This document shows positions 22,037 to 31,972 of a stretch of 64,000 bases of DNA, in pieces (position 1 is the stretch's first letter; each line of letters begins with the position of its first letter). This stretch comes from Gemmatimonadales bacterium. Its GTDB lineage: Bacteria > Gemmatimonadota > Gemmatimonadetes > Palauibacterales > Palauibacteraceae. The position numbers and the translations under genes are program-made. The notes below the pieces were generated by a model. That model did no database searches. It was given only the letters and a program-made list of their open reading frames with translations, and was not told the DNA's origin. Location of the stretch: assembly GCA_009838765.1 (NCBI GenBank), contig VXQX01000068.1:1-64000 (forward strand), given 5' to 3'.

Positions 22037-22518
22037 GGGAATGCGAAACGTAGCTCCGGCTCGTCCCCCCAGTTAAACGACGCCTGTCACCACGTCCTTC
22101 CCTTCGGGTTCCCCCCCCGGCGGGCCTGGTCCGACAGCTTGGGACTACCCCATTTGAGCAATTGCGCGCCTTCGGCGACTGGCTAAGCCTGTCCGAATGC
22201 GACCGTTGATCCGGAGGGGGAACGAGATGCACTCGCTCGGCAGGGTGTTGCCGGCAGGGTTGGGCTAGGGAACGTGCCCAGGAACCCGGGAACCACCTGC
22301 ACCAGGCCCGGATGCTCGGCCATCACCGTAAAGCCACCTCAGACGGCAGGCTCCACGAATTCCAGTTGTACCCAGCCCTTGAAGGCCTGTCCGCGTTGCG
22401 TCGTGGAGGCCGCCCGCCGAATCGACGTTGAGCCTCCGTCCTGGGCTGTGGAAGCGCTGGCCGAGCAGCCCGGATCCGACGGTAAGACCAGGACTTGAGG
22501 AGACTCTGCTTCAGGACT
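22037..22518. other. Gene-free stretch, no recognisable feature
   Basis: This 480-base gap lies between two genes that converge on it. All frames are short or interrupted. A 74-codon frame at 22274-22498 has no family pattern, and the opposite strand has stop-broken peptide segments. It could be decayed sequence, but I cannot name its origin. Confidence 0.4.
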
Positions 22519-23805
22519 TCACGCCGCGACCCGCAAGGGGAGCGCGGCGAGTCCCCGGATCACCGTCGATGTCCGGTAGTGCGGGCTGTTCGAGGCGAGT
22601 TCAATCGTGCCAAGCTTGCGTAGCGCCTCGGTGAAGATCGCGCCTGCCTCCATGCGCGCGAGTTCGGCGCCGATACACTGGTGGACCCCGTGTCCGAACG
22701 AAGCGTGCTTCGGACCCGTGCGTGTAATGTCGAAGGTATCGGGATTCTCGAACGCCGCCCCGTCCCGGTTCGCCGACCCGGTGAGCAGGATCACGCCATC
22801 GCCCGCCCTGATCGTCCGCCCACGCACCACGACGTCCGCCTTCGCGATCCGGAAGTCCGTCTGCACCGGGCTGTCGAAGCGCAGCATCTCGTTGATCGCG
22901 GCGCGCGTCCGCTTCGGTTCTTCGCGCAGGCGTTGCATCTGTTCCCGGTCGCGCACGAGGGCGAGCATGCCGTTGCCGATGAGGTGGGTCGTGGTTTCGT
23001 TGCCGGCAATCATCAGCACGCTCAGCATGTCGGAGGCTTCGGCCATGCTGATCCCGTCGCCCGCAGCAGCCAGCCTGGCCAGCGTGCTGACGGCGTCGTC
23101 CTCGCTCGATTGCGTCCGCTGACGTAGCAGGGCCGTGAAGTACCGCCGGATCTCCGACCCCGCGATGTGCGCGGCTTTGCGCTCGCGGCGCGTCGCGATC
23201 ATCTCGAGGAGCCGGGCACGCCTCCGTGACCATACCTCCCATCGGCGATGGTCCCTCTCGGGGAGCCCCAACATCGCCAGCATCACCCGCATGGCAAGCG
23301 GCTCCGCCACCTCGGCGATCCAGTCGATCGTCCGCCGTCCAGCCGCCCCCTCCACGAGTTCGGCCGCAACGCGCGCGATGGTCTCGTCCAGTGCCCGCAG
23401 GCGCGTACTCGTGAAGGCCTTCGCGGCGCACCTGCGCAGCCGCGTGTGTTCGGGCGGATCCACGAGCAGGATGCTGTAGTCGTCCGGGGCCGGCGGGAGC
23501 ACGCTTCGCGTCGCTTCGCGCCATCTCGGGTTGTTGGAGAAGCGCTCGTGGTCCTTTGCCGCCTCGAGCACGTCCTCGTAGCGGGTCAACAGCCAGCTGC
23601 CCAGAATGGTGCTCCGATGCACGGGGCTCCGCCTGCGAAGCCTGGCATAGGTCCGGTACGGGTCCTGGATCACGCTCGGCGACAAGGGGTTGTAAGTTGC
23701 TCCGCTCGTTGCCCTCTCTCCAATGCCGACGGCGCGTGCGCCCACGCTGCGCCATCGTTGCCGGTTCATTCGCGAGATGGTCTCACGAACGGCTCGTCGA
23801 GGCAT
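22519..23805 (-). CDS. Cytochrome P450
   Basis: A 428-residue bacterial P450 from ATG 23805, preceded by GGGAG; an upstream ATG at 23904 adds 33 unsupported residues. The landmarks are in order: I-helix oxygen-activation motif AGNETTTHLIG, the K-helix ExxR pair in INEMLRFDSPVQ, the GSANRDGAAFENPDTFD segment, and the haem loop FGHGVHQCIG with Cys377. It is a soluble monooxygenase that needs separate ferredoxin partners, which are not in the window. It diverges from a LuxR-type regulator across a palindrome-rich gap, so the regulator probably controls it. Confidence 0.93.
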   Translation of the reverse strand: MPRRAVRETISRMNRQRWRSVGARAVGIGERATSGATYNPLSPSVIQDPYRTYARLRRRSPVHRSTILGSWLLTRYEDVLEAAKDHERFSNNPRWREATRSVLPPAPDDYSILLVDPPEHTRLRRCAAKAFTSTRLRALDETIARVAAELVEGAAGRRTIDWIAEVAEPLAMRVMLAMLGLPERDHRRWEVWSRRRARLLEMIATRRERKAAHIAGSEIRRYFTALLRQRTQSSEDDAVSTLARLAAAGDGISMAEASDMLSVLMIAGNETTTHLIGNGMLALVRDREQMQRLREEPKRTRAAINEMLRFDSPVQTDFRIAKADVVVRGRTIRAGDGVILLTGSANRDGAAFENPDTFDITRTGPKHASFGHGVHQCIGAELARMEAGAIFTEALRKLGTIELASNSPHYRTSTVIRGLAALPLRVAA

Positions 23806-23946
23806 GTGGCTCTCCCAACTCCCTTCACGGTACAGGCGACGTCCCGCAAGAGACTCTATCCGTCCCTCGGCCGACACCGCACCAATACACCCGTTGCCGA
23901 GCAAGCTCCCCGCGCAGACCGCATGTCTTCGTCAAGATTGCGGATT

Positions 23947-23984
23947 GTCATATGACTTGCCCGTCGACTACCTCATTTGAGGTA
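23947..23984. promoter_or_regulatory. Two palindromes between P450 and regulator genes
   Basis: GTCATATGAC at 23947-23956 is a perfect 10-base palindrome. TACCTCATTTGAGGTA at 23969-23984 has perfect 7-base arms around TT. Their centres are 25 bases apart in the divergent intergenic region. They look like operator sites for a dimeric regulator such as the adjacent LuxR-type protein. Confidence 0.5.
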
Positions 23985-24009
23985 GGATGCTGGCGCTAGC
24001 CTGAATGGC

Positions 24010-24045
24010 CGTATCACATGATTTCGTGGTCGTATCACATGATTT
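24010..24045 (+). repeat. 15-bp direct repeat upstream of regulator
   Basis: CGTATCACATGATTT occurs at 24010-24024 and again at 24031-24045. The 21-base period equals two helical turns, so two protein units would bind on the same DNA face. It lies upstream of the preferred regulator ATG at 24098. Confidence 0.6.
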
Positions 24046-24097
24046 GAGGCCACTATCTCCGGGACACACACCAAACAGGGCTGGCGGCAGAAACAGC

Positions 24098-25291
24098 ATG
24101 ATCGCGCGGGACAGGTTCGAGCGGACGTTGGCGTTGCTGCACCGGGCGGCGCTGGGCGATGCCAGGTGGATCTCGGCCGCCGCCTCCGTCAACTCCCTGA
24201 TCCGGGCGAGCGGCCACAGCCTGGGGTACGGCAAACTGCATCCGGGGAGCGATCCCGAGGTCTTCCTCGCACGGTCGTTCTCCGGCCGGCAGCGTCGCAG
24301 GGACTGGGAGGAGCTGTATTTCGGCCGCTATTGGGGCCAGGATGAGGCGCTGCTGCGGCTCAGCACGCTTCGTCCCGACGAACTGGCCCACAAGCCGGAT
24401 CTCTACACGGACGAAGAGAAGAAGACCTCGCCTGTGTACAACGACTTTCGGCGCACCACCCGATCGCAGAACGGCCTCTTCATGGTGCTCGACGGACTCG
24501 ACGGGTGCGGCATCGTGTGGTCGTTTGCCGACTCCATGAAATCCGGAGGCTGGGGATACGACCAGATCCGGGACATCAAGCGCCTGGCGCCCCATATCCG
24601 CCACTTCGCGCGCGTCCGGCGCCTGATGATGGACGCCGAGGCGCTGGGTGCATCGCTTGCCGAGCTGCTCGACAACAGACGGTCGGGGATCGTCCAGCTC
24701 GACCGGCGCGGACGGATCCGGGAGGCGAACGACCAGGCCCGGGCCCTCCTGCTGAAAGGCGATGGGCTCCGCGACAGGAAGGGTTCGCTGACCGCCGGGC
24801 TGCCGGCGGAAGACGACCGGCTACAGCGGCTGCTGGCGGCCGCCTCGCCCCCATACGGCACACAGGGCGCCGGAGGCTCGATGAAGATCACGCGCCCGGA
24901 CGCGGGAACGCCGCTGGTCATCGAGGTCCATCCCGTCGGCGGAATGCGTGCGGACTATCGGGCATGGAAGGTCGGCGTGCTGGTGCTCATCGTAGACCCC
25001 GCGAGTCGATCCCGCATAGATCCGGCGTTGGCGGCTATGGTCCTGGGCCTGACGCCCACGGAGAGCCGCGTGGCGGTGGCGCTGGCCGCCGGCCACTCCG
25101 CGGCCGGGATCTCGCGGACTCTGGGCATGGCGGAGGGTACCGTGCGGGTACACCTGAAGCACGCCTATCGCAAGCTGGGGATCAAAGGTCAGACCGAACT
25201 CGCGCGGCGGATCCTGTCGCTGGAGGCCGTACGAGCGCCCCCTCGCTCACCAGGTACTTGCCGAGTATCACTACCAACCCAAGTACGGTAG
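24098..25291 (+). CDS. LuxR-type HTH transcriptional regulator
   Basis: A 397-residue protein from ATG 24098; a start at 24005 would translate the operator-like direct repeats and is rejected. The N-terminal ~220 residues (FERTLALLHRAALGD, YFGRYWGQDEALLRLS) are a ligand or PAS-like sensor. A second PAS-like part includes GIVQLDRRGRIREANDQAR. The C-terminal GerE-type helix-turn-helix reads LTPTESRVAVALAAGHS, then TLGMAEGTVRVHLKHAYRKL and KGQTELARRIL. Divergent placement next to the P450 suggests local control. No AHL-synthase gene is present, so the signal is unknown. Confidence 0.88.
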   Translation: MIARDRFERTLALLHRAALGDARWISAAASVNSLIRASGHSLGYGKLHPGSDPEVFLARSFSGRQRRRDWEELYFGRYWGQDEALLRLSTLRPDELAHKPDLYTDEEKKTSPVYNDFRRTTRSQNGLFMVLDGLDGCGIVWSFADSMKSGGWGYDQIRDIKRLAPHIRHFARVRRLMMDAEALGASLAELLDNRRSGIVQLDRRGRIREANDQARALLLKGDGLRDRKGSLTAGLPAEDDRLQRLLAAASPPYGTQGAGGSMKITRPDAGTPLVIEVHPVGGMRADYRAWKVGVLVLIVDPASRSRIDPALAAMVLGLTPTESRVAVALAAGHSAAGISRTLGMAEGTVRVHLKHAYRKLGIKGQTELARRILSLEAVRAPPRSPGTCRVSLPTQVR

Positions 25292-25311
25292 ATGGTACAG
25301 TGGCGAGTACC
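25253..25311. other. Nested inverted repeat across the regulator gene end
   Basis: GGTACTTGCC at 25253-25262 pairs with GGCGAGTACC at 25302-25311 (nine of ten positions), and inside it CTACC at 25271-25275 pairs with GGTAG at 25287-25291. The structure spans the stop of the LuxR-type gene. There is no T-run, so intrinsic termination is uncertain. Confidence 0.3.
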
Positions 25312-25495
25312 CCAAGGGAGTGAGCTGTAGTCGTAACGACGCCGGCGGGAACGCGTACGATCCTGCTTTTAACCACATTGCGGCTGACATCGATACCGAT
25401 CTCTCGCAGCAACCGACGCCGGCCGTCCGCGCACTTCTCTGCCGGCAGAGTACCTGGATCAGGCTGAACTCGCGTACCCATCTGGTGCGTCCCTC

Positions 25496-25857
25496 TCAGG
25501 GCGAGATCACGGCCCTGTAGTCCGCGGGGTCCCGGAGGCCGTAGTCCTCGCCCGTGACCTGGAGCACGCGGACCCGGTACAGGGAAAGCGAGCCGCGGTC
25601 CGGGACGCGGAACCGCGGGAGCGGACCCGCTTCGAGCGCGCCCCCCACGACGGCCCGATGCCGTCCGCCCGCGCGGGACTGGTAGAGTTCGAGACCGGGC
25701 GCCCGGCGGCCGGCGGCCCGGCGAGATCGCCGGTGCAAGACCAACTGACGCCCGCCGCGAGCAGCGCCGCGAGGCCGGCGCGGCGCCGGCCGGAACGGCA
25801 TTCGACCGGGGCATGCGCTTCCCACGGCATGCCTGGGGCGCTCGAGTATCGGTTCAT
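25496..25857 (-). pseudogene. Small lipoprotein gene broken by a frameshift
   Basis: On the minus strand the frame from ATG 25857 gives a lipoprotein-like signal (AGLAALLAAGVSWSC, then TGDLAGPPAAG) and then degenerates to Ser/Arg/Thr-rich sequence. At about 25690-25740 another frame takes over with natural composition, RAPGLELYQSRAGG, LPRFRVPDRGSLSLY and VLQVTGEDYGLRD, to a TGA at 25496. Joined, they make a plausible lipoprotein of about 110-120 residues with a beta-rich mature part. A frameshift or small deletion is the simplest reading; a sequencing error cannot be excluded. It lies 19 bases after the DUF3500 stop on the same strand. Confidence 0.5.
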
Positions 25858-25876
25858 GAAGAGTTCCTCGTTCGGG

Positions 25877-27040
25877 TTACCGCTCGTGGTGTTCTTCGTA
25901 GTGCTTGCCGAGCCAGTCCTCGCCGTAGTCGTTGCCGGGGTCGCGCATGATGCTGTGCACGTGGTTCGCGGCGTTCCCGCCGACTCCTTCCTCGACGATG
26001 TACTCGATCAGGACCGATGGACCGTGGACCCGGTAGTAGTAGCGTGCCATCTGGTCATCCGTCGGACCGATCCAGGCGAAATGAAGAGCTTCCAGGCCAT
26101 CCGCGCGGATCTTTTCCAGTTGCGCGTCGGCTGCGGCGTGGTCCGCGTTGCCCGCGAACTCCTCAACCAGTTCCCACATCAGCGTCCGCTGCACCTCATT
26201 CAACGAGGACGCCTGTATCCCGGAGAATTCGCTCAGGCTCCCTTTGCGGCCCGGTCCAGCCAGCACGTCAAACGGGATTTCGCCACCGAGGACCGCGACC
26301 GCCCGCTGCTCCGCGCTCAAAGCCTGCAACAGTCGCCACCCGCGTTCGCCCTCGTTGGCGAGCACTCGCCAGCCCGCCTCGAGGCCGCGCTCGATCTCGT
26401 GCGGCTCGGCCCCGAGGAACAGCGGGGTGAACGCGATCCTGTCGTCGACCACGGTGAAGCTGGCCGCCATGTGGTGTCCGTTGACCAACCAGCCCCAGGC
26501 CGGGTCGCCGGGCTGCCCGAAGACCGCGATCCAATAGTTGGCCGACGTCCAGCTTTCGAGCAGGCGTTCCGGGATACGGTCTTCACCGCTCTCTACGGCT
26601 GCCGATGCTTCCTCGTGGAGCACCTCGTCCAGCCGGATCACGCCGGCGACCTTCTGGTACCCCTGACTGCTCGTCGATGCGCGCAGCAGATGGTGAAGCC
26701 GACGCCGCTGCTCATCGGTCAGGTCTCCCAGTCGCACGCCGGATCGCGTCACGATCGACGCCGGAAGGTTGCTCCAGCCAGTGCGTTCCGCATCGGCGTC
26801 GAAAGCGAACACAGCCGCCTCCCGTTGTTCGGGGGAGAGGGCGGCGAGGAAGTTGCGCGCGGTGCCGGCCATGCGCTCCGGCGACGTGCCGGTCGCGGCG
26901 GGCGGCGCGGCGGAAGATGGCGTGTCGGAAAGCGCCGGCTGCCCCTCGGCGGCATCGCCGCGGCAGCCGCTGAGTGCCAAACCGGCGACGAGAGCGAGCC
27001 GGCCGAGGGTCATGACGGAAACGGATTGCGTGCGCTTCAT
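25877..27040 (-). CDS. DUF3500 lipoprotein
   Basis: A 387-residue protein. The signal MKRTQSVSVMTLG to ALSGC is a lipobox with the Cys at residue 26. The mature region matches DUF3500: FLAALSPEQREAAVFAFD, a short stretch before LHHLLRASTSSQGYQKV, YWIAVFGQPGDPAWGWLVNG, HHMAASFTVVDDRIAFTPLF, and the C-terminal HVHSIMRDPGNDYGEDWL followed by a His/Glu-rich end. The family is exported and without a proven function; conserved His and Asp residues suggest a metal-binding hydrolase, which is inference. GAGGA upstream supports the ATG. Confidence 0.85.
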   Translation of the reverse strand: MKRTQSVSVMTLGRLALVAGLALSGCRGDAAEGQPALSDTPSSAAPPAATGTSPERMAGTARNFLAALSPEQREAAVFAFDADAERTGWSNLPASIVTRSGVRLGDLTDEQRRRLHHLLRASTSSQGYQKVAGVIRLDEVLHEEASAAVESGEDRIPERLLESWTSANYWIAVFGQPGDPAWGWLVNGHHMAASFTVVDDRIAFTPLFLGAEPHEIERGLEAGWRVLANEGERGWRLLQALSAEQRAVAVLGGEIPFDVLAGPGRKGSLSEFSGIQASSLNEVQRTLMWELVEEFAGNADHAAADAQLEKIRADGLEALHFAWIGPTDDQMARYYYRVHGPSVLIEYIVEEGVGGNAANHVHSIMRDPGNDYGEDWLGKHYEEHHER

Positions 27041-27130
27041 GAGTTCCTCTTTCGTTCATGCCTTGCAGTTCACGTCTGCAATCGGGTCAACCGAAGAATC
27101 GGCGCCCTCTGCTTGTTCTGATACGGCAAT

Positions 27131-27279
27131 CACCTGACAGGTGCCCCCGAAAAAGGGGGACGCGGCCACCCGGCCTCCGAAGAGTGACCACCGTCCAGGC
27201 CGAGAAGATAGCTCGGCGGAAGCTGTCGCTGCTGGAACTTGCCCAGGAGCCCGGCAACGTCTCGAGGGCGTGCAGGTGA
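27131..27279 (+). mobile_element. IS481-type insertion sequence remnant
   Basis: From GTG 27184 the frame reads TTVQAEKIARRKLSLLELAQ, then EPGNVSRACR, and stops at 27279. This is the start of the N-terminal helix-turn-helix found in IS481-family transposases (ARRKLSLLELA..LGNVS.AC). The DDE catalytic part is missing. Upstream, CACCTGACAGGTG at 27131-27143 is a perfect palindrome, followed by CCCCC-GAAAAA-GGGGG, which may be the element's end. The truncation lies 13 bases from the 3' end of the large surface-protein gene on the other strand. Confidence 0.6.
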
Positions 27280-27291
27280 GCTCGAGAGGAG

Positions 27292-30144
27292 TCAGAGGCG
27301 CCGGAGCGCTTCGATCACGTGATCTCGAGGTAGAGCTCCAGTTCCCCGTGCCCGGCGGCGGCGCGAACCTCGCCGTCCCCTGCGCCCGGATCTCCACCGG
27401 CGGCGGCCCGCGGCGGCACCGAACGGGAGGAGGGTCGAAGGCGCGGCACCGGGGTCATCGGGCGTGCTTCCGCAGTCGGCCTTGCCCGTGCGGCAGCGCT
27501 CGGTCCAGGAGAGCATGTCGCCGAGGTCGTAGCTCCCGTTCCGGTTGCCCAGGCGGTCCAGGGCGTCGAGCTGGGCGTCGCTCAGGCGTCCCTTGCCGAA
27601 CAGCGCCGCCGAGGCCGCCTCCGGCGTCACGCCGTCCAGGAGCGTGAGCGCGTCCTCCGCCGCGTCTCCGCCCGCCATGTCGCTCGACGAAGAGGCGGGG
27701 GCGACCGTGTCCGACACCGCCGCCGACAGCTTGCGGTTGTCGGCGGTGCAGATGGCGCCGCTCGCCGAGCAGTCGGTCGTCGCCGGCAGCGTGATCGCCA
27801 CCGTGCTGGTGGCCGTGTCGGGCCGGACGGTGATCGTCCAGGCCTGATTGCTGCCCTTCGTTTTGCGCCGGGCCTTCCGCACGTCGCCGCCCGAGACGAC
27901 GAACGCGCTGTCGCGCAGCGTGAGGTAGCTCAGGCCCTCGATCTCCTCGCTGAAGGTGAGGGCGAACGTGAACGCCGCGCCCGAGTGATCACCCGGCATG
28001 CCGCCGAAGGTCGCCGTGAGCGCCGCCTGCGCCGCGTCGTCGTCGACGATCGTCCCCGTCGCCGCCGCCGCGACCCCCAGCGTCGCGCCCGCCGGGCTCG
28101 ACAGCGTGAGCGTGAACGTCTCGTTCGGTTCCTCCACGGTGTCCTCCGTCGTCGATACGCTCACCGTCTTCTCCGTCACGCCGGCCGCGAACGCGAGCGT
28201 CCCGTCCTCCGCGGTGAAGTCGGTGCCGCTCGTCGCCGTCCCGCCCGCCGTGGCGTAGGCGACCGTCACCTGCTCACCGGTGGCCACCGAGAGCGACACC
28301 GTGAACACGACCGAGTCGCCCTCGCTCGCGCTCGCATCGGCCACGCTCACCGACGGAGCCGCCGGCCCCGCCACCGTGTCGGCCACCGCGCCCGAGAGCG
28401 GCCGTCCGTCCGCGGTGCACGGCGCGTTGGCGAGGTGGCAGTTGCGCCGCACCGGCAGCTCGATCGTCACCGCCTCCATCGAGTGCGGCTCGACGGTGAT
28501 CCTCCAGCGCCGGTTGCTGCCCCGGTCCCGGCGGCTGACACCGACGATCTCGCCCCTGGTTATGTCGAACAGGTAGTCGCGCACCGCGAGGTATCCGAGG
28601 CTCCTCGGCTCCTCGCTGAAGGTGAGCCCGAACTTGAACTCGGTCACCCCGTCGTGGGCGTCCGGCATGTCCTCGAAGACCGCCGCAAAGGCTGTTTGCC
28701 CCGGCTGCTGCAGCGCGGTCTCCGAATGGAGCCCCGAACCCGAGTCGTTCACCGCCCGCATCTGGAAGGTGTAGGTCGTGTCGGCCGAGAGCCCGGTCAC
28801 CACGAAACTCGTCAGCGACGCGCTGTTCGGGATCGAGGTCCAGCTCCCCCAGTTCCCGCCCTCGTCCGCGCTCCGCCGGTACTCGTAGCCGGTGATCGCC
28901 GAGCCGCCGGTCTTCTCCGGCTCGCTCCAGCCCAGCGTGACCCACGTGGCGCTCGCCGCTGTCGCGCTCAGATCCCCCGGCGCGCCCGGCTCGCTCGTCG
29001 AGATGCCGACGATCACGCCATCGGGCCAGGCAAAGTTGGTGCTTTGCCACAGGATGAACGTGGCGGCGGTCTGGCCGTCCGACACCGCAAGCGTGTGGGT
29101 GCCGATATGAAGGCTCAGATTCGAGCCGGAATCGCCAAGGCCCCGCGCGTCCGGACCTCCAACGGCGAAATGGATGTAGCTATTTCCGGACTCGTTATAG
29201 ATATCGGTGACCTCATAGATGGCGTCCTTGTACTCGAAGCTGACGGGACCGGTGAGCCTGCCGTAGGAGTTCGAGCTGCTCCAACCCTGCTTGTCATGAT
29301 CGGCCCCGGAGCCGGTTCCGCGCGTGATGTCCGCCTGCCAGATCACGGGGTGCCCGTCGGGCACCGTGATCGGTGTGCCGGCGCGCCGCGTGATCTTGAC
29401 GTCGACCGTGTCCCCGTCGGCCCAGCCGAGGTCGTCCGTAGTTACGTCGCACCAAGTGATCTCGCTGGGTGACAGGTCTTCGTGGTCGGCGAAGTCGAAG
29501 GTGTGGCTGTCGAGGTGCAGCACCCATCTCGCCTCGGAATTGTCCCTCCAGTTGTTGCCGCGGGAGGTACTGAACATGATCAGTTCAGAAGACGGTTGAT
29601 TCTCCGCGTTTTTGCAGCCCACCGTTGCGACGCTGATGGCGTCGAGGTGGAAGGTGTGGCCGTCGTACGTGAACTGGGTGGTCGGGGTAAGGCTGCCATT
29701 GCCATACCTGAAGTACCCGAAATCGGCGAAGCCCGGGTTCGACGAGACGATCAGCTCGCCCGTGAAGAGCGTCGCGGAGCCGTCGGAATTGATGGTCTGC
29801 GCCTGCGCGGTCCCGGCGCCCGCGAGCAGGAGGGCGCCCGCCAGCAGCCCGGCCGCCCGTCGCCGCGCACCGTTGGGCGACCCTCCGATGCGCCAGCGGC
29901 CCCACCGCCGACCACCGGGCCCGGGTGCCTCCGAAACAACACGCGGTCCCGATCGCGGCTGAAAACGGGCCTGCCCAGGCGGGCGGGCCGTTTCCGTTGA
30001 TGCCCCGACCGGCCGGGAGGCAGCGAAACGGCTACAAGCGGAAGGAGGGTTTACGGCGCGGCGCGCCGGTCGGATCCGCGGGTCCCGGGAGACGCGGAAT
30101 CCCGCTGGCTCGGTGTCACCACCTACCGCGTTCGCTGCAGACAT
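27292..30144 (-). CDS. Large FN3/Calx-beta surface protein
   Basis: An open frame of 950 codons. A signal peptide (AAGLLAGALLLAGAGTAQAQ) sits about 95 residues in; the only canonical start is ATG 30144, so the true N-terminus is unclear. The mature part has a fibronectin type III domain (PGAPGDLSATAASATWVTLG), a Calx-beta domain (SEGDSVVFTVSLS to GTIVDDD) and two copies of a ~105-residue module (LTFSEEPRSLGYLAVRD and LTFSEEIEGLSYLTLRD), each with a Cys pair. A calcium-loop-like GNRNGSYDLGDMLSWTERC follows. The last ~40 residues are Arg-rich noise, whereas another frame gives a cleaner tail (GHGELELYLEIT), which suggests a 3' frameshift. Probable cell-surface adhesin. Confidence 0.7.
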   Translation of the reverse strand: MSAANAVGGDTEPAGFRVSRDPRIRPARRAVNPPSACSRFAASRPVGASTETARPPGQARFQPRSGPRVVSEAPGPGGRRWGRWRIGGSPNGARRRAAGLLAGALLLAGAGTAQAQTINSDGSATLFTGELIVSSNPGFADFGYFRYGNGSLTPTTQFTYDGHTFHLDAISVATVGCKNAENQPSSELIMFSTSRGNNWRDNSEARWVLHLDSHTFDFADHEDLSPSEITWCDVTTDDLGWADGDTVDVKITRRAGTPITVPDGHPVIWQADITRGTGSGADHDKQGWSSSNSYGRLTGPVSFEYKDAIYEVTDIYNESGNSYIHFAVGGPDARGLGDSGSNLSLHIGTHTLAVSDGQTAATFILWQSTNFAWPDGVIVGISTSEPGAPGDLSATAASATWVTLGWSEPEKTGGSAITGYEYRRSADEGGNWGSWTSIPNSASLTSFVVTGLSADTTYTFQMRAVNDSGSGLHSETALQQPGQTAFAAVFEDMPDAHDGVTEFKFGLTFSEEPRSLGYLAVRDYLFDITRGEIVGVSRRDRGSNRRWRITVEPHSMEAVTIELPVRRNCHLANAPCTADGRPLSGAVADTVAGPAAPSVSVADASASEGDSVVFTVSLSVATGEQVTVAYATAGGTATSGTDFTAEDGTLAFAAGVTEKTVSVSTTEDTVEEPNETFTLTLSSPAGATLGVAAAATGTIVDDDAAQAALTATFGGMPGDHSGAAFTFALTFSEEIEGLSYLTLRDSAFVVSGGDVRKARRKTKGSNQAWTITVRPDTATSTVAITLPATTDCSASGAICTADNRKLSAAVSDTVAPASSSSDMAGGDAAEDALTLLDGVTPEAASAALFGKGRLSDAQLDALDRLGNRNGSYDLGDMLSWTERCRTGKADCGSTPDDPGAAPSTLLPFGAAAGRRRWRSGRRGRRGSRRRRARGTGALPRDHVIEALRRL

Positions 30145-30174
30145 GACGTGCCGCCTCGCTCCGTGCTGGATTGG

Positions 30175-30200
30175 GGTTGATAATTGGTAGTTATCAACCG
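30175..30200. repeat. Left recombination-site-like palindrome
   Basis: Arms GGTTGATAA and TTATCAACC (9 bases, perfect) flank a 7-base asymmetric spacer TTGGTAG, then G. Paired arms with a 6-8-base overlap region are the architecture of a tyrosine-recombinase core site. An identical 26-base copy in reverse orientation lies at 31332-31357, on the other side of the recombinase gene. Confidence 0.75.
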
Positions 30201-30264
30201 TAATCGGATCGCATGTATATCGTGCTGCCAGAGTCGCTTATGCCGATTTTGACGCCGGGCTGAA

Positions 30265-31263
30265 GTGAGCGGTCACAACCTTCCGGCCACGCCGCGGTCA
30301 CACATGGATGAGCTGCGGATCGGGGACCCGGAGGCCGCCGCCGGATCCCTCGGCACGTACCTGGAAGCCGTCGCCGACGGCTCGCTGAGCGGCAACACGG
30401 TGCGGGCGCTGAGGGGAGATCTGGAGCGGTTCGCGGCGTGGTGCGAGGAGCGGGATGTGAGTCCGCTGCCTGCGCTCGCCGGGACGGTCGTGGCCTACGT
30501 CGAGGCGATGTCGGGCGAGTGCGCGCCCGCCACCGTGAGGCGCCGCATATCGAGCATCGCCGCCGTGCACAGGGCGGCCGGAGAGCCGAGCCCGCTGGAG
30601 CACGCCGAGGTGCGCCGGGCGCTCCAGCGGATGCGGCGCCGGAAGGGGTCCCGGCAGGCGCAGGTCGAGGGTCTGACCTGGGCGCTGCGCCAGCGCCTGA
30701 TCGAGGCCGCGGGCGACCGGACGATCGACATCCGCAACCGCGCGATGCTGGCCGTCGCCTACGACGCCATGCTGCGCCGCTCCGAGCTGGTGGCGCTGCA
30801 AGTCGCTGACGTGAAGGTGGATAGGGGCGGATCGGCCTCGCTGCTGGTGCGCCGCGCCAAGAACGATCCGGAGGGCGGAGGCGCGGTGCTCTACCTGCAC
30901 GGCGACAGCGTGAGGCTGCTCAGGGAGTGGCTCGCCCGAAGCGGGGTCCGCGGGGGGCCGCTCTTCCGTTCCATGCGCAAGGACGGGTGCGTGGGCGGGG
31001 CGCTCCATCCGGGCCAGGTGCCGCGCATCTACAAGGCCATGGCCAAGCGCGCCGGGCTCTCCGCAGAGGTCGTGGACCGGCTCTCCGGGCACAGCCCCCG
31101 GGTGGGCGCGGCGCAGGACATGATCGCCTCGGGCATCGAGCTGCCGGCGATCATGCAGGCCGGACGCTGGAGGAGCGTCCGCATGGTTCAGCGCTACGGC
31201 GAGCGGCTGCTCGCGAAACGCAACGGAGCGGCCCAACTCGCCCGGCTCCAGAAGCGCCGCTGA
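30265..31263 (+). CDS. Tyrosine recombinase/integrase
   Basis: A 332-residue site-specific recombinase. The N-terminal SAM-like core-binding domain (SGNTVRALRGDLERFAAWC, TVRRRISSIAAVHRAAG) precedes the catalytic domain with Arg171 (MLRRSELVAL), Lys199 (RRAKND), His276 and Arg279 (SGHSPRVG), Trp302 in place of the second His (AGRWRS) and the nucleophile Tyr311 (MVQRYGERL). The set is complete, so it should be active. The start is GTG 30265; ATG 30304 is an alternative. It is the only gene between two inverted copies of a recombination-site-like palindrome. No excisionase gene is seen. Confidence 0.92.
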   Translation: MSGHNLPATPRSHMDELRIGDPEAAAGSLGTYLEAVADGSLSGNTVRALRGDLERFAAWCEERDVSPLPALAGTVVAYVEAMSGECAPATVRRRISSIAAVHRAAGEPSPLEHAEVRRALQRMRRRKGSRQAQVEGLTWALRQRLIEAAGDRTIDIRNRAMLAVAYDAMLRRSELVALQVADVKVDRGGSASLLVRRAKNDPEGGGAVLYLHGDSVRLLREWLARSGVRGGPLFRSMRKDGCVGGALHPGQVPRIYKAMAKRAGLSAEVVDRLSGHSPRVGAAQDMIASGIELPAIMQAGRWRSVRMVQRYGERLLAKRNGAAQLARLQKRR

Positions 31264-31319
31264 GAACCCGCCGGGCGACAAATGCTTGGATCGATGACCC
31301 CGGCGGGTTACCGTTCTCA
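31261..31319 (+). terminator. Long hairpin at the recombinase stop codon
   Basis: AACCCGCCGGG at 31265-31275 pairs perfectly with CCCGGCGGGTT at 31299-31309, and the flanks TGAGAAC (31261-31267) and GTTCTCA (31313-31319) are also complementary. The structure begins in the recombinase stop codon. Without a T-run it is either a factor-assisted terminator or an accessory site for recombination. Confidence 0.5.
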
Positions 31320-31331
31320 CCGGTCAGATAG

Positions 31332-31357
31332 CGGTTGATAACTACCAATTATCAACC
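31332..31357. repeat. Right recombination-site-like palindrome, inverted
   Basis: This is the exact reverse complement of 30175-30200 over 26 bases: arms GGTTGATAA and TTATCAACC around CTACCAA. On this side the arm complementarity extends to 11 bases (GCGGTTGATAA at 31331-31341 and TTATCAACCGC at 31349-31359). Because the spacer is asymmetric, the two sites have opposite polarity. Confidence 0.75.
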
Positions 31358-31359
31358 GC

Positions 31360-31655
31360 TATTTCTTCAACATAGCCCCCATTTCGTGAGCAAATCGTGA
31401 ACTACCGGGGAATCGCCGTGGCGGAGTCGTGACTTCTTGCGGAACGGCGCTGTCGGCCACTCCCCTCCCGATTCGGCCGGAGTCTTCCTTCAACTCGGTC
31501 CCACCCGAGGAGCGCCGCAAGATGGTCGAGCGGCCCGACGGGCCGGGGCTGTTCGCGCACCTGCGCGACCTGCCCGCTCCGCTCCCGGTGGCGGACGTGC
31601 AGGACTACCTGCGCTCGCACGGCATGCCGCCGCACCCAGTCTGACTTCAGCCGAT
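31360..31655. other. Stretch between recombinase cassette and integrase remnant
   Basis: There is no recognisable gene. A 71-codon frame at 31429-31644 (ending DVQDYLRSHGMPPHPV) has plausible composition but no binding site and no family I recognise. The first ~60 bases after the right palindrome are locally AT-richer, as around the palindromes themselves. Confidence 0.35.
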
Positions 31656-31800
31656 TTCCTGCCGGGATTCCGGCCACCCTGGATCCGGTGGTCGGACATC
31701 GACATGGAGCACGAGACCATCCGGTGGCGGGGCGAGCACGAGAAGACAGGCGGGGACATTGCGGCGCAAAGTCGCCTCGACCTCATGGACCGGCCGCTCA
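31656..31800 (+). pseudogene. Integrase remnant next to tRNA-Ala
   Basis: One frame contains IRWSDIDMEHETIRWRGEHE followed by KTG. This follows the tyrosine-integrase stretch after the catalytic Arg (rWsDIDle..TirWr.E..KTg), including the beta-hairpin Lys. The rest of the domain is absent on both sides and no start can be assigned. It lies about 100 bases from the 3' end of tRNA-Ala, the usual position of an island integrase. Confidence 0.55.
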
Positions 31801-31899
31801 AGATCCTCTGCGAACCCGGGGGCTGGAAGACAGCCCGAGCGGTGCTCCAGTGCCTACCAGAGGGCCGACCAGGATCGGCTCAGGAAGGCCCAGGTCCAG

Positions 31900-31972
31900 T
31901 GGAGCCGATCGGATTCGAACCGACGACCTCCTGCTTGCAAAGCAGGCGCTCTCCCAACTGAGCTACGGCCCC
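31900..31972 (-). tRNA. tRNA-Ala (anticodon TGC)
   Basis: A 73-base cloverleaf on the minus strand. The acceptor GGGGCCG pairs with CGGCTCC with one G-T pair, D-arm region GTAGCTCAGTTGGGAGAGC, anticodon stem CCTGC/GCAGG around TTTGCAA with anticodon TGC, and T-arm with loop TTCGAAT. The discriminator base is A; CCA is not encoded. The sequence is close to typical bacterial alanine tRNAs. Confidence 0.97.

Follow-up and report, generated by a model that had tools for sequence, protein, structure and literature searches.

Cre/lox is a standard tool in the laboratory, and its known role in nature is the resolution of replicon dimers. The standard lox-like target consists of two 13-bp arms separated by an 8-bp spacer. 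Here we describe a 64,000-nucleotide stretch of DNA from a Gemmatimonadales bacterium (assembly GCA_009838765.1, contig VXQX01000068.1, positions 1 to 64,000; hereafter the window), in which the gene for a Cre-like tyrosine recombinase lies between two inverse copies of a lox-like palindrome. We consider it probable that this cassette is a promoter-inversion (phase-variation) switch of the Cre type, with the recombinase encoded inside the segment that it would invert. The systems that are most similar in protein homology (29% identity to P1 Cre) and in catalytic residues are Cre/loxP of P1, Dre/rox, Vika/vox, VCre, SCre, Nigri/nox and Panto/pox; in these, too, the gene adjoins a palindromic target whose spacer is short and asymmetric (PMC4957104). 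Each recombinase of these described systems was matched with a single target site (PMC4957104), and the P1 record likewise has one. In contrast, the cassettes reported here have two inverse sites per gene with arms of 9–13 bp, are chromosomal, and adjoin a surface gene.

The proposed plan resembles that of Hin/hix of Salmonella, in which inversely oriented 26-bp sites serve to aim a promoter at a gene for a surface structure. The Hin recombinase gene also resides within its invertible segment (PMC5903667). However, Hin is a serine recombinase, whereas the enzyme studied here is a Cre-like tyrosine recombinase whose sites are unrelated to hix. Promoter inversion by a tyrosine recombinase adjoining a surface adhesin is also found in fimS, ipuS/UpaE, cwpV and similar switches, and ipuS additionally has an adjacent regulator gene (PMC6083910, PMC2784873). 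The recombinase genes of these elements are located beside the element, overlap it with their 3′ end (ipuA) or are unlinked (RecV), and the enzymes have not been reported as Cre-like, whereas ours is Cre-like and is encoded inside. Finally, pdif modules of Acinetobacter plasmids are gene segments bounded by inverse palindromic core sites. These modules depend on XerC/XerD of the host and travel between contexts, unlike the present cassettes, which have an internal recombinase and conserved flanks. In the open-access literature, we found no paper that links phase variation to Cre-like recombinases, and none of relevance to phase variation in Gemmatimonadota.

Two exact and mutually inverse copies of GGTTGATAA-TTGGTAG-TTATCAACC bracket one tyrosine recombinase gene in the window. 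The left site (30175–30199, forward strand) is GGTTGATAATTGGTAGTTATCAACC, with arms GGTTGATAA/TTATCAACC and the asymmetric spacer TTGGTAG, and the right site (31333–31357, reverse strand) is its exact inverse copy GGTTGATAACTACCAATTATCAACC, such that GGTTGATAATTGGTAGTTATCAACC and GGTTGATAACTACCAATTATCAACC are reverse complements of each other. Each palindrome spans 9+7+9 = 25 bp, and the match is 26 bp if a common extra inner G is counted (30175–30200 and 31332–31357). When up to three mismatches were permitted, these two matches were the only ones in the 64 kb, and 100 shuffles yielded none. Approximately 1.2 kb separates the sites, and the recombinase is its sole gene. An earlier note on this DNA had recognized a complete tyrosine recombinase as the only gene inside two 26-base inverse copies, and our exact search, open reading frames and Pfam assignments agree. 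The 9-base arms, 7-base spacer TTGGTAG and inverse orientation that it described are also correct, although the right copy ends at 31357 and not at 31359. That note had overlooked that the right site sits inside a longer palindrome with 16-bp arms (31326–31364), that two further cassettes are present in the same genome, and that the enzyme resembles Cre.

The likeness to Cre is extensive. The window recombinase (332 amino acids, 30265–31263, forward strand; GTG start, with an in-frame ATG at 30304) was assigned by both Pfam and a PDB profile. Its Pfam matches are Phage_integrase (5e-18) and a SAM-like N-terminal domain (1e-5), and a profile built from the recombinases of nine related loci (see below) gave 17 matches in PDB at E ≤ 1e-10, all of which are Cre or Cre-derived (best E 9e-40). 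This alignment spans residues 25–315, corresponding to homology with Cre across both domains, and the Cre-aligned catalytic residues R171, K199, H276, R279, W302 and Y311 are invariant in the nine sequences. Searches with tblastn recovered P1 Cre (29% identity) and D6 Dre (28%), and plasmid-borne relatives from Alphaproteobacteria reach up to 47% identity. Both Pfam and PDB thus identify a tyrosine recombinase, without the serine recombinase catalytic domain of Hin and Gin, and judged by this homology the window enzyme is a member of the Cre group.

An argument for function comes from other loci. Seven Gemmatimonadota genomes contain nine complete loci between them. Three are in the window's own genome (the window, C47 and C95), and G001 has one (on contig C49). 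Searches of GTDB contigs, of some 400 phylum and class genomes, and of 121 genomes of family f6 contributed the other five, in G206 (L063), G397 (L065), and in G075, G083 and G069, which together form group B. Two additional copies are clipped by contig ends (G001 C50, L019; G016 C101, L020). C47 is a short contig that possibly derives from a close relative, though its right flank differs. An inverted pair of palindromes flanks the recombinase in all nine complete loci, and in each of them the left spacer is identical to the right spacer, even though six different spacers are represented (TTGGTAG, TGGGAG, TTGCTA, TTGCAT, CGGGAT and CTGCCT). The arms vary by group (GGTTGATAA, TCCCGATAA, TCTCGATTA and GCGCGATAA; at least four arm families) and are 9–13 bp long, with 6–7 bp of spacer between the innermost arm pairs (8–9 when counted loxP-style). 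Between the window and C47, the sites match perfectly at both ends, despite a 13% base difference in the recombinase genes. For tyrosine recombinases, inverting the DNA between two sites takes a common crossover sequence in inverse orientation. Spacers that match at both ends while changing between loci therefore fit sites that recombine with each other. The earlier note had proposed that the site and its spacer be followed in related genomes, and the joint change at both ends is what emerged. Neither of the outcomes that it considered damaging was encountered: no recombinase ortholog above ~55% identity was found without sites, and the repeats are not dispersed sequence, because within the window's genome the core is confined to the cassettes of C35 and C47, and C95 carries a variant of it.

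Alternatively, the palindromes could be transcription terminators or operators, with the recombinase acting elsewhere, for example in replicon dimer resolution as performed by P1 Cre. The right site can form a 16-bp hairpin of unusual stability (fold z -7.2) that is followed by a T-tract in C47 and G001, and the existence of relatives with a single upstream site would suit dimer resolution. However, the left hairpin lacks a T-tract and its stability is ordinary (z -0.7), terminators have no need of the identical asymmetric inverse loops found at both ends of every complete locus, and dimer resolution is impossible for a chromosomal inverted pair. Terminators, operators and chance repeats were rejected as the sole function because identical inverse spacers are not expected of them, and we regard this explanation as very improbable.

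The predicted target of the switch lies to the left of the cassette, where a divergent gene encodes a secreted surface protein of 950 amino acids with fn3 and Calx-beta domains (27292–30144, reverse strand; Pfam Calx-beta 9e-19, fn3 5e-13). Its frame starts at 30144, 30 bp outside the left site, as the earlier note had estimated. Secreted left neighbours with Calx-beta, fn3, cadherin-like or SWM domains are also present at C95, G001, G397, G075, G083 and G069, and C47 carries the window's N-terminal surface-protein sequence before the contig ends, which brings the surface neighbour to eight of the nine loci. Four aligned loci of group A keep both the open frame and its start at ~30 bp from the left site. 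In group B, the start codon lies ~33–45 bp outside it, is preceded by a clear Shine-Dalgarno sequence and opens a frame with a signal peptide. At G397, a short open frame intervenes, and the annotated secreted frame begins ~420 bp away. Since the surface gene usually begins ~30–45 bp outside the left site, its promoter must in most loci overlap either the site or the cassette; the strong Shine-Dalgarno sequence and signal peptide of group B leave no space for a promoter outside the site.

A candidate for this promoter is present at the right inner end, pointing outward (31286–31314, forward strand; TTGGAT-17-TACCGT). The best outward match at this end starts with TTG in each of the nine loci, and its spacing is 17 in eight of them and 18 in the other. 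Promoter enrichment is absent from the other three combinations of end and strand. The evidence consists of matches to the consensus, which reach consensus strength only in G069 (TTGACG-17-TACAAT, 10/12 positions of the sigma-70-like consensus and the sole promoter match in 1.8 kb), with weaker co-located candidates elsewhere. The suggestion in the earlier note that a flip could aim a promoter at the surface gene thus gains a candidate element in all nine loci, albeit a weak one in the window. At the opposite end, a -10-like TATATC (30216–30221, forward strand; TTATCA-19-TATATC, p 0.17) may belong to the recombinase's own promoter, the -35 region of which would overlap the inner arm of the left site. 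A TATATC-like element is kept in group-A loci. The recombinase of the window's genus may start at the GTG at 30265, behind a short upstream reading frame.

On the right, the neighbour in four loci (C95, G001, G206, where the end of the contig truncates it, and G397) is a longer, intact hybrid sensor kinase/transcription factor. The window retains only a decayed 134-bp fragment of such a GAF-PAS-HisKA-HATPase-REC-OmpR hybrid kinase (31504–31637, forward strand). The earlier note had portrayed a system composed of a recombinase alone, which is accurate for the interior of the cassette but too narrow in view of the kinase genes opposite. Between the right site and this fragment is a flank (31358–31465, forward strand) that is 77–92% conserved in six loci and carries repeated GTGA motifs. 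GTGA-type direct repeats occur at 31360–31440, with equivalents in C47, C95, G001 and L065, and inverse GGTCAC copies are located inside the left end. It is possible that these repeats are binding sites for a regulator or an accessory factor.

The paired inverted sites, the co-variation of their spacers, the kinship with Cre, the single origin of the paired-site clade (see below) and the conserved neighbours are all read directly from the sequence. From these features we infer a mechanism wherein an active Cre-like enzyme would recombine the two inverse lox-like sites and thereby flip the 1.2-kb segment holding its own gene. In the assembled orientation, which we would label OFF, the promoter at the right inner end would point away from the surface gene and, in four loci, toward the kinase/transcription-factor gene. 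In the flipped orientation, the same promoter, if active, would drive transcription across the left site and, ~30 bp beyond it, reach the start codon of the surface gene. Reversible surface variation is the presumed purpose of this arrangement.

Several observations weigh against such a switch. The nine loci are kin and hence do not constitute nine independent tests. The window's promoter candidate is weak when considered alone (p 0.12), with a strict scan finding none, and the left inner end of group-B loci shows no evident promoter for the recombinase. G206 has a hexapeptide-repeat protein on the left and, after it, an SdrD-like lipoprotein. The inverted state was looked for in the nine complete assembled loci and was not found, although assemblies display the majority state only. 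A single orientation in all nine has a two-sided chance of 0.004 if the two states are equally common and independent. This uniformity may mean that the switch is strongly biased, tightly regulated, or inactive and locked. The proposal of the earlier note that the enzyme inverts its own gene is supported by the paired inverse sites and by spacer co-variation in nine of nine loci, but not by the orientations observed.

The last of these options amounts to an ancestral switch whose orientation is now frozen, the recombinase being inactive or maintaining something else. This would account for the uniform orientation, and it is consistent with the leader of the recombinase frame, which is disrupted in the window's genus: an upstream ATG there meets a stop after 7 codons. 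Yet the catalytic residues do not vary, Ka/Ks stays well under 1 (0.09–0.42 across the recombinases; 0.36 for the window versus C47), and pairs of sites stay identical while spacers differ between loci. We thus consider a locked switch to be quite improbable.

Another explanation is that the paired sites serve mobility or the exchange of cassettes between loci, in the manner of inverse pdif modules or a tyrosine-recombinase transposon, rather than a local switch. Three copies reside at separate places in one genome, the distribution is sporadic, and the window copy lies within a variable island next to tRNA-Ala. Moreover, the end of G001 contig C50 has exactly 55 nt in common with the C49 cassette, and this assembly-graph junction points to another locus that would have an identical interior but a flank ~9% different. 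A mobile unit of this kind should end at the repeats and have unrelated flanks, but the DNA immediately outside both sites is conserved between loci, for which reason simple IS-like transposition by the sites was rejected. In addition, the left neighbour is nearly always the divergent surface gene, the only solo sites found in the genus are two at contig ends, and the transferred unit appears to be larger than the cassette. On these grounds, we judge mobility to be an unlikely function, and the promoter-inversion switch remains the preferred reading.

Some details of these loci deserve mention. G001 C50 and G016 C101 both break just inside the right site, and no recombinase was found in the G016 assembly. 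The C50 end was also entertained as inversion heterogeneity, and this was rejected because it extends 21 bp beyond the site, and its overlap of exactly 55 nt with C49 is what a collapsed repeat would give. The identical interior and diverged flank of the suggested second locus would point to recent copying or exchange of the cassette. The variable island in the window (22040–31899) abuts tRNA-Ala (31899–31972); in the same-genus genomes compared, the region from 22.0 to 31.9 kb is mostly replaced by other DNA, and the tRNA/GMC-oxidoreductase side is 84–94% conserved. Beside the tRNA, at 31684–31891, is a degenerate piece resembling the C-terminus of a tyrosine integrase, which is partly repeated in G001 contig C46. 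Integration at tRNA-Ala was rejected as a function, as the tRNA adjoins only the window copy among the loci scanned and none was found near C47. Recent transfer between G075 and G083 was rejected as well, given that the cassette and the adjacent DNA have diverged equally (82–85%). The public metagenome-assembled genome of L065 (JAPPHB010000060.1, the same contig as G397) bears a Gammaproteobacteria label. Although this 70% relative might hint at a jump to another phylum, that idea was rejected because GTDB kinship places the genome in the window's class.

The nine paired-site recombinases group together as a single clade in a tree of 26 proteins (support 98/99). Outside this clade, a single upstream lox-like palindrome was confidently recognized in L067, L069, L071 and the P1 record (loxP), and no paired sites were found in the distant relatives L064, L066–L075, G268, G014 and G002. 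Among them, the Gemmatimonadota genome G268 encodes two Cre-like paralogs (L097 and L098) without paired lox-like sites. A parsimonious history would be that a single-site module acquired a second, inverse site once. A fuller account, which we offer tentatively and with some doubt, is that this Cre-type clade probably came from single-lox dimer-resolution modules of plasmids or phages and was domesticated once in Gemmatimonadota via the second inverse site. The resulting self-flipping switch would alternate transcription of a large secreted surface protein with that of a hybrid sensor kinase/transcription factor, and several orthogonal site specificities would have arisen in related genomes.

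The cassette is thus probably a natural inversion switch of the Cre/lox type. If this is true, then the Cre enzyme class would be tied to reversible surface variation. Moreover, the nine loci supply six naturally matched pairs of recombinase and site with different spacers, which would be useful for examining how Cre-type specificity evolves and are candidates for orthogonal tools.
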